Source: Herbaspirillum chlorophenolicum (GTDB lineage: Bacteria > Pseudomonadota > Gammaproteobacteria > Burkholderiales > Burkholderiaceae_D). Taken from it: a DNA stretch of 64,000 bases. Positions 57,069-57,889 of the stretch are shown here, one piece after another. The DNA is taken from NCBI RefSeq assembly GCF_001189955.1, contig NZ_LFLT01000003.1, forward strand, positions 1-64,000, in the 5' to 3' direction. The position numbers were made by a program, and so were the translations under genes. The notes under the pieces are model-generated. The model ran no database searches and was not told the origin of the DNA. It was given only the letters and a program-made list of their open reading frames with translations. How positions within the stretch are numbered: the first letter of the stretch is position 1; every line of letters begins with the position of its first letter.

Positions 57069-57644
57069 TCAGAACCCCAGCGACTTGCCCGCGCCCAGCA
57101 AGGTGGCCACGCCAAGAATGGCGAAGATAACCGCCGCGATGGCATGCACGACGCGCACCGGAATCCTGCCGGCAATGCGGTCGCCCAGCAGCACGGCCGG
57201 CACGTTGGCGATCATCATGCCCAGCGTGGTACCGGCCACTATTGGCACGAAGGCATGGTACTGCGCGGCCAGCGCCACGGTGGCGACCTGGGTCTTGTCG
57301 CCCATCTCGGCCAGGAAGAAGGTCAGCAAGGTGGTGCCGAACACCCCGAAGCGACCGAACTTGGCTTCGCTCTCATCGAACTTGTCGGGGATCAGCGTCC
57401 ACACCGCCATGGCGATGAAGGAGACGCCCAGCACCCAGCGCAGGATTTCCGGCGACAGCAACGAAGTGATCCACGCGCCCAGCGCGCCGGCAAAAGCATG
57501 GTTGGCGATGGTCGCGACCAGGACGCCGAGGATAATGGGAAGGGGCTTGCGGAACTTGGCTGCCAAGATGAAGGCCAGCAGTTGGGTTTTATCGCCGATT
57601 TCGGCGAGTGCGACGATGCCTGTGGAAACAAGGAATGCATCCAT
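57069..57644 (-). CDS. mneA: TMEM165/GDT1-family Mn2+ exporter (MneA-like)
   Basis: The 191-residue inner-membrane protein has two copies of the family motif E-x-G-D-K-T (ALAEIGDKTQ at 13-21 and FLAEMGDKTQ in the second half) and about six spans. Bacterial relatives (MneA in Vibrio) export manganese. The start is ATG 57644, with GGAGAG 8 bp upstream. The gene has a yybP-ykoY Mn2+ riboswitch in its leader, which strongly supports manganese as substrate. Confidence 0.92.
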   Translation of the reverse strand: MDAFLVSTGIVALAEIGDKTQLLAFILAAKFRKPLPIILGVLVATIANHAFAGALGAWITSLLSPEILRWVLGVSFIAMAVWTLIPDKFDESEAKFGRFGVFGTTLLTFFLAEMGDKTQVATVALAAQYHAFVPIVAGTTLGMMIANVPAVLLGDRIAGRIPVRVVHAIAAVIFAILGVATLLGAGKSLGF

Positions 57645-57710
57645 TGGGTTTTCTCTCCATGGCCGGACAAAAACGCATGACCACGCGCGCTCCCCGGCCA
57701 TTGTCGGAGG

Positions 57711-57855
57711 CTACGTGGTCAAAGGTCTTGTCAAGCGAAGAACGCATCCCGTCAAAGACATGCGTTCTCAGGAACCGCCGGCGCCATGATCTGTGGATCA
57801 AGTATGTTGACGCAAGCCCCTCCTCAGGATGGAAGGCGACTACTCCCCAATGACC
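57711..57855 (-). promoter_or_regulatory. yybP-ykoY manganese riboswitch
   Basis: On the minus strand the leader contains the class hallmarks in order: TTGGGGAGTAG near 57850, CGTCAACATACTTG near 57815-57800, and GACAAGACCTTTGACC near 57735-57717. P1 pairs GGTCA (57855-57851) with TGACC (57721-57717). Downstream, GACCACG (57720-57714) can instead pair CGTGGTC (57685-57679), followed by TTTTT, a terminator that excludes P1. Mn2+ binding should stabilise P1 and permit transcription. The family assignment rests on sequence signatures. Confidence 0.92.
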
Positions 57856-57860
57856 GGCGC

Positions 57861-57889
57861 ATTTTACTGATTTTGAACCGCCGAGTCCA
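57861..57889 (-). promoter_or_regulatory. Promoter of the riboswitch-mneA transcript
   Basis: On the minus strand TGGACT and TAAAAT are separated by exactly 17 bp. The predicted start near 57854 coincides with the first base-paired strand of the riboswitch P1 helix. Confidence 0.7.

Follow-up and report, generated by a model that had tools for sequence, protein, structure and literature searches.

The yybP-ykoY Mn2+ riboswitch has been described as being among the most widespread riboswitch classes, and in the accounts available its expression platforms are either terminators or blocked ribosome sites. Its location ahead of UPF0016/GDT1 genes is established (328/333 strains; PMC7380456), a yybP-ykoY RNA has been reported upstream of mntP in Herbaspirillum seropedicae (PMC7011215), and according to one review variant ligands are suspected inside the class (PMC7266159). 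For the X. oryzae riboswitch, Mn2+ stabilisation of P1.1 was measured and was read by the authors as antitermination (PMC6754395), and control of both transcription and translation has already been stated for mntP of E. coli (PMC7838592; PMC11647493). In V. parahaemolyticus, mneA (TMEM165 family) lies behind a yybP-ykoY element; the RNA-seq signal there was reported not to fall at the riboswitch, and the authors doubted termination (PMC13274385). In B. pertussis, a Mn2+ riboswitch precedes an exporter of the calcium:cation antiporter type, and an RNA of ~200 nt was read there as early termination (PMC8546581).

The DNA analysed here is a 64,000-nt stretch of Herbaspirillum chlorophenolicum, referred to below as the window, and all features discussed are on its minus strand. 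The leader at 57860-57642 is a yybP-ykoY Mn2+ riboswitch ahead of a GDT1/TMEM165-family exporter. The original prediction had named both the riboswitch class and the exporter, and both were recovered by profile searches: RF00080 matched 57654-57860 with 75.4 bits (gathering cut-off 45, E 7e-18), the hallmark motifs GGGGAGTAG (57848-57840), GTCAACATACT (57811-57801) and AGACCTTTGACC (57728-57717) were in place, and the downstream gene (57069..57644, 191 aa, start codon ATG at 57644-57642) matched PF01169 (GDT1/UPF0016) with E 4e-46. The best named relative was L032, a locus of an H. frisingense MAG, at a protein identity of 93%. Two RF00080 riboswitches are present in the genome analysed (5.3 Mb, 192 contigs), each with a Mn2+ homeostasis gene downstream, namely GDT1 here and mntP at the second copy.

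Alignment to RF00080 and folding placed the aptamer at 57731..57848, and both metal-site loops, GGGGAGTAG and CAACAUA, were found in the window. The locus is a genuine member of the class, and its Mn2+ binding and switching are predicted from sequence. A scan detected a likely -10 box, TAAAAT, at 57861..57866, with the transcription start expected at the G of GGTCA/GTCA; a -10-like hexamer ended 12-13 nt upstream of GGGGAGTAG in 75 of the 83 related leaders described below. Given this position, the RNA probably starts at GGTCA, that is, at the 5′ strand of P1.1. When the whole leader was folded as a single sequence, the result was only modestly better than that of shuffled sequences (z -1.85, 10/200 as good). 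The aptamer in the window also contains an extra hairpin of 28 nt (57767-57740, GAACGCAT:ATGCGTTC), whose 3′ arm recurs as CATGCGTT right after helix A (57679-57672), so that AACGCATG could also pair there; L014 and L017 share this insert, L015 and L019 have a shorter form of it, and most aligned rows lack it.

Related leaders were collected from 134 loci, of which 120 had a GDT1 hit and 84 carried an exact GGGGAGTAG within reach; removal of L032 as a duplicate of L015 left 83 leaders. These were picked by the exact motif and then aligned (alignment A1), and they take in the gammaproteobacteria Thiolinea and Thiothrix (L062, L073). Both GGGGAGTAG, which was the selection motif itself, and CAACA were invariant in 83/83. 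The energy, L3-length, groove-span and H/L1 swap tests described below used 71 of the 83 rows, the other 12 having been parsed to other helices. When 17 of the 36 GDT1 loci lacking the exact GGGGAGTAG (L033, L034, L036, L037, L039 and others) were scanned with cmscan, L069 alone reached the RF00080 threshold, indicating that close GDT1 relatives can be without the riboswitch. A further 80 riboswitch regions, which are part of the matches listed, were added and the loci were sorted by downstream gene, giving 143 GDT1, 21 MntP, 10 CaCA and 40 unplaced among 214 loci. RF00080 matches were present in 34/34 Herbaspirillum genomes at E <= 0.001 (L001-L031, L135-L144), 29 being above the cut-off. Among the 41 Herbaspirillum matches, 18 were before GDT1, 21 before mntP and 2 before a CaCA-type exporter, and six genomes had both the GDT1 and the mntP copies.

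The three helices that had been proposed for this leader were all located. P1.1 pairs the 5′ strand GGTCATTGG (57847..57855, the probable RNA 5′ end, with GGTCA at 57855-57851) with CCTTTGACC (57717..57725). The latter strand is in common with helix A (TGACCACG:CGTGGTCA), whose 5′ strand A5, TGACCACGT, lies at 57713..57721 and whose 3′ strand A3, GCGTGGTCA, lies at 57678..57686 and carries the 5′-terminal GGTCA of the RNA a second time; the sharing of bases between P1 and the helix then taken for a terminator was therefore correctly anticipated, the TGACC strand being common to P1.1 and A. Folding extended helix A inwards by helix H, made of H5 (GCCTCCG, 57705..57711) and H3 (CGGGGAGC, 57689..57696). 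Helix B (ATGGCCGG:CCGGCCAT) joins B5, ATGGCCGGG (57693..57701), within the loop region of hairpin A+H, to B3, TCCGGCCAT (57659..57667). The ribosome-binding site GGAGAG (57653..57658) follows B3 directly, 2 nt past the CCGGCC core, as the claim that the third helix abuts this site had it. An in-frame ATG at 57701, within B5 (ATGGCC), would lengthen the GDT1 frame to 210 aa and is probably due to chance.

Helices A and B were strongly conserved as pairings over the 83 leaders. In helix A, 91% of cells were paired and both sides had changed in 7/8 pairs; in helix B the values were 94% and 5/8. Jointly, 92.5% of 1322 cells were paired and 12/16 pairs had changed on both sides, and all 500 shuffles stayed below the native leaders on each of five measures; sliding the strands out of register reduced the pairing to 24-45%. 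Double compensatory changes were also counted by parsimony on a FastTree tree of the proteins, with pairings slid by 1 or 2 columns as the control. Helix A gave 29 such changes (1-3 when slid) and helix B gave 15 (3-5 when slid), and changes by which a pair was lost or regained numbered 46 for A (64-83 slid) and 36 for B (68-102 slid). The covariation of A and B is thus nearly certain. P1.1 kept GTCA:TGAC and GG:CC round two U.U mismatches and showed only 2 double changes (0-3 slid), because its 5′ strand hardly varies. Hence, of the expectation that all three helices covary in related leaders, the part concerning A and B was borne out and that concerning P1.1 hardly at all, while the expected preservation of the alternative helices in homologous leaders was found, the P1.1 complementarity being kept as well. 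Helix H paired more strongly with its native partner than with a swapped one in 73% of the 71 leaders (p 9e-6); in a non-redundant set of 63 leaders the share was 70% (p 8e-5).

The strands of the two conserved helices follow each other as A5-B5-A3-B3, as they would in an H-type pseudoknot, so A and B need not exclude each other. The core spacings were narrow (L1 13 nt in 41/83, L2 9 nt in 59/83, L3 11-12 nt in 58/83). We further estimated the stability of A+B in 71 leaders with a rough model that combines stacking energies with a penalty of 9.6 kcal/mol, or alternatively 12. A+B was lower in energy than hairpin A+H alone in 66/71 leaders at the penalty of 9.6 and in 52 at 12, and lower than a lone B hairpin in 71/71 and 69, respectively; the mean nearest-neighbour energy of helix B was -20 kcal/mol. 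The opposite relation had been predicted for this leader, namely that the third helix must exclude the terminator helix since the two would form a pseudoknot; the H-type order, the long loops and the energies do not bear out such a necessity. A groove-span calculation passed A+B twice in 65/71 leaders, but it did not reproduce a known short deep-groove distance in either orientation and was left unused.

Exclusion might nevertheless operate as the switch itself, A forming at low Mn2+ and keeping B out, and a B hairpin preventing A from re-forming and locking the ON state once Mn2+ is present. Such an arrangement agrees with the original idea of exclusion and would be in keeping with the local competition between A+H and B, as H takes part of B5 in Herbaspirillum, four bases of it in the window leader, and with the length of L3, which did not correlate with that of helix A (rho 0.10, p 0.43; 71 leaders). 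However, helix B adjoins the ribosome site, or includes it in some relatives, which would be odd for a helix of the ON state, and the energy model favours A and B together; we therefore regard it as unlikely that the two are truly alternative. Although their covariation is directly observed, their simultaneous formation is suggested by strand order and modelled energies, and a plain B hairpin could in principle also form in the Mn2+ state.

The position of helix B relative to the ribosome site would fit a link to translation. Among the 71 leaders having a ribosome-site-like motif, it started 0-2 nt past the B3 core in 67, and the site was unrecognisable in 12/83. At least two ribosome-site bases lay inside the extended helix B in 14/83 leaders, whereas in 50/83, and in the window, no base of the site was inside B, the 12 leaders with no recognised site coming in addition. 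In some relatives the ribosome site itself is paired in B, as UUCC:GGAG (L130, L149) or CCUCC:GGAGG (L223), which points to B as the blocker. Mn2+ would be expected to turn its exporters on, so a blocking helix B should belong to the low-Mn2+ state together with A; we therefore prefer to assign A+B to that state and P1.1 to the high-Mn2+ state.

Putting these observations together, we favour a reading in which the Mn2+ riboswitch acts mainly on translation and does so by exchanging strands with an expression platform of pseudoknot order, and would give this reading a probability of roughly 0.55, with the competing explanations overlapping it in part. At low Mn2+, the 5′-terminal P1.1 (GGTCA:TGACC) would be weak, and A5 would instead pair with A3, the repeat of the 5′-end GGTCA. 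The resulting hairpin A+H would display B5 in its loop, B5 would pair with B3 immediately upstream of the ribosome site, and the compact A+B fold would bar the 30S subunit from that site. At high Mn2+, the aptamer would hold P1.1, so that A5 would be occupied and A could not form; the structure then left, no more than a simple B hairpin, would admit the ribosome and the exporter would be made. The stabilisation of P1.1 by Mn2+ in X. oryzae (PMC6754395) and the steady RNA-seq signal across the V. parahaemolyticus mneA riboswitch (PMC13274385) would fit this reading. We infer both the identity of this ON state and the response of the leader to Mn2+.

Three other pairings near the ribosome site were considered. 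A candidate helix C, formed by TGGCCG of B5 and TGGTCA of A3, would free the ribosome site in the Mn2+ state, but it failed the covariation test: its core GGCC:GGTC was complementary in 62/83 leaders, B5 stayed GGCC when A3 was GATC or AGTC, and none of its flanking pairs did better than permuted ones, the lowest p being 0.09, while the mean contiguous extension gave p 0.046. Helix C was therefore rejected. Pairing of CCTCC in L1 with the ribosome site was likewise rejected as a general feature, native combinations being no better than swapped ones (native better in 56% of 71, p 0.29; 51% of 63 in the non-redundant set, p 0.91). The minimum free energy fold of the window leader paired the aptamer 5′ strand TCATTGGG (57853-57846) with the start-codon region CCCAATGG (57648-57641). 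Such pairing between the 5′ end and the start codon scored -10.6 in the 18 Herbaspirillum leaders, -6.5 in the 65 other leaders and -6.9 in 37 controls, of which 36 were without the aptamer motif and one was the dropped duplicate L032, which has it. It is possibly a lineage-specific extra lock, the 18 being close relatives.

Helix A followed by TTTTT had been taken for an intrinsic terminator in the original prediction, and the classic transcriptional arrangement would make A+H the terminator, P1.1 the antiterminator and B a secondary element acting on translation. The window does have TTTTT in L3 (57669..57673), separated from the end of helix A by TGCG, so that the U run begins 4 nt past A; U runs of at least 4 occurred in 11/18 Herbaspirillum GDT1 leaders and none in the other 7/18, and several Herbaspirillum leaders gave positive d-scores (32.0 in L003). 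The short RNA of ~200 nt seen without Mn from the B. pertussis riboswitch (PMC8546581) would also suit this arrangement, although the exporter there belongs to the calcium:cation antiporter superfamily and the shortening of the RNA, as described there, need not be due to an intrinsic terminator. Over the whole set, however, the U runs were not enriched: runs of at least 4 in L3 were found in 22/83 leaders (22.6 +/- 3.2 in shuffled loops), and the d-score was above 0 in 32/83 (38.5 +/- 3.1 with shuffled loops). The window leader itself scored -3.6, as compared with 37.8 on the same formula for the terminator after the gene, and 0/21 mntP leaders scored as terminators. A stem followed directly by a conserved U tract was thus found neither in the window nor over the 83 leaders, and an intrinsic terminator as the general mechanism is improbable. 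Moreover, the U run has already been transcribed by the time B3 is made, which rules out B as an antiterminator and as the element that decides termination there.

Some Herbaspirillum leaders, such as L003, may still terminate, and where L3 is U-rich the hairpin A+H may also end some transcripts. The proposal of dual control over transcription and translation thus retains a possible place in U-rich species and loses the terminator as its general component. Caution is needed in that helix A should not be called a terminator from sequence alone. A Rho-dependent route is also conceivable, in which the leader is untranslated without Mn2+ and Rho ends transcription, A and B only blocking translation. 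It has a precedent in E. coli mntP (PMC11647493) and would account for mRNA changes without a U tract, but the A/B platform was not found in E. coli mntP, and as the principal explanation we hold it to be quite unlikely. It is compatible with the translational strand exchange favoured here, under which untranslated leaders may be shortened by Rho.

Leaders of mntP and of CaCA-type exporters showed the order A5-B5-A3-B3 again, formed by different sequences. The mntP leaders (n=21, all Herbaspirillum, 18 distinct) had 96% of helix A and 99% of helix B paired. Their helix A sequence, CCATaGACGT:ACGTCcATGG, is unlike that of GDT1, and their helix B is GGCTGGGC:GCCCGGCC in some and GGTCGGGC:GCCCGACC in others, with switches from C-G to U-A. 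At most one of 500 shuffles was as high on four of the five measures, while 107/500 were as high for further pair types. Helix H was mis-registered in this alignment (63% paired), because two subgroups use different registers. The same platform thus seems to be used in Herbaspirillum with interchangeable exporters.

We also searched each leader automatically for its best A/B pairing, with 60 dinucleotide shuffles as the control. At most 3/60 shuffles were as good in 138/141 GDT1 leaders, 21/21 mntP leaders and 9/9 CaCA leaders; the 143 GDT1 loci include near-duplicates, and no score was given to two GDT1 loci, CaCA L021, L224 and E. coli alx, in which a 3′ core was not recognised. In other families of the class, no shuffle was as good in 10/10 scored leaders from 8 genomes (11 loci, with one not parsed, L217 and L226 being one sequence from one genome, and L225 below the Rfam cut-off). 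For E. coli mntP, the A/B platform was not found by this search, 44/60 shuffles being as good. The 3′ positions of RF00080 carry some platform sequence, so hits chosen with this model are biased towards the platform. In four CaCA leaders (L020, L189, L197, L205), the start codon placed by tblastn was much more than 50 nt downstream of helix B, which suggests another start or a leader peptide.

A broader proposal is that beta- and gammaproteobacterial Mn2+ riboswitches share one modular platform, an H-type pseudoknot between the loop of the P1.1-competing hairpin and a strand before the ribosome site, which would clamp translation at low Mn2+, be undone by the Mn2+-stabilised P1.1, and serve exporters of at least three unrelated families (GDT1, MntP, CaCA). 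We put this forward tentatively, at slightly less than even odds. If true, it would offer a general mechanism that can be tested in many leaders of proteobacteria, with the platform kept across three exporter families. No description of the A/B platform was found in those parts of the literature on Mn2+ riboswitch platforms and pseudoknots that were available, and an earlier drawing in Dambach 2015, Price 2015 or Barrick 2004 is possible. The riboswitch class and the gene are thus ordinary and known, and the platform is unusual, well supported and not found described.

As compared with the RF00080 class in general, the aptamer core and the downstream Mn2+ exporter are alike and the complementarity of the P1.1 switch helix is kept, but the Rfam 15 structure line for this match has neither helix A nor B, unlike the leader here. 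In the yybP-ykoY riboswitches of L. lactis, B. subtilis and X. oryzae, as far as the accounts available describe them, P1.1 competes with a downstream strand, as is proposed here, and that strand is said to form an intrinsic terminator. The leaders analysed here have no conserved U tract, and at the ribosome site they have a second helix that covaries. E. coli mntP is likewise a Mn2+ riboswitch on an exporter, reported as translational with Rho-dependent termination (PMC11647493), and differs in that the A/B architecture was not found there. The comparison with V. parahaemolyticus mneA concerns the exporter family, the riboswitch class and the RNA-seq profile alone. BP3410 (BprK) of Bordetella pertussis is of the same exporter type as that behind the CaCA leaders carrying the platform, those leaders being the ones analysed. 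Finally, for the preQ1, SAM-V and SAM/SAH riboswitches, initiation is described as being controlled by a pseudoknot that lies at the ribosome site or close to it; in these the ligand binds within the pseudoknot, whereas in the Herbaspirillum leader the platform is separate from the aptamer and the ligand would undo the pseudoknot order.
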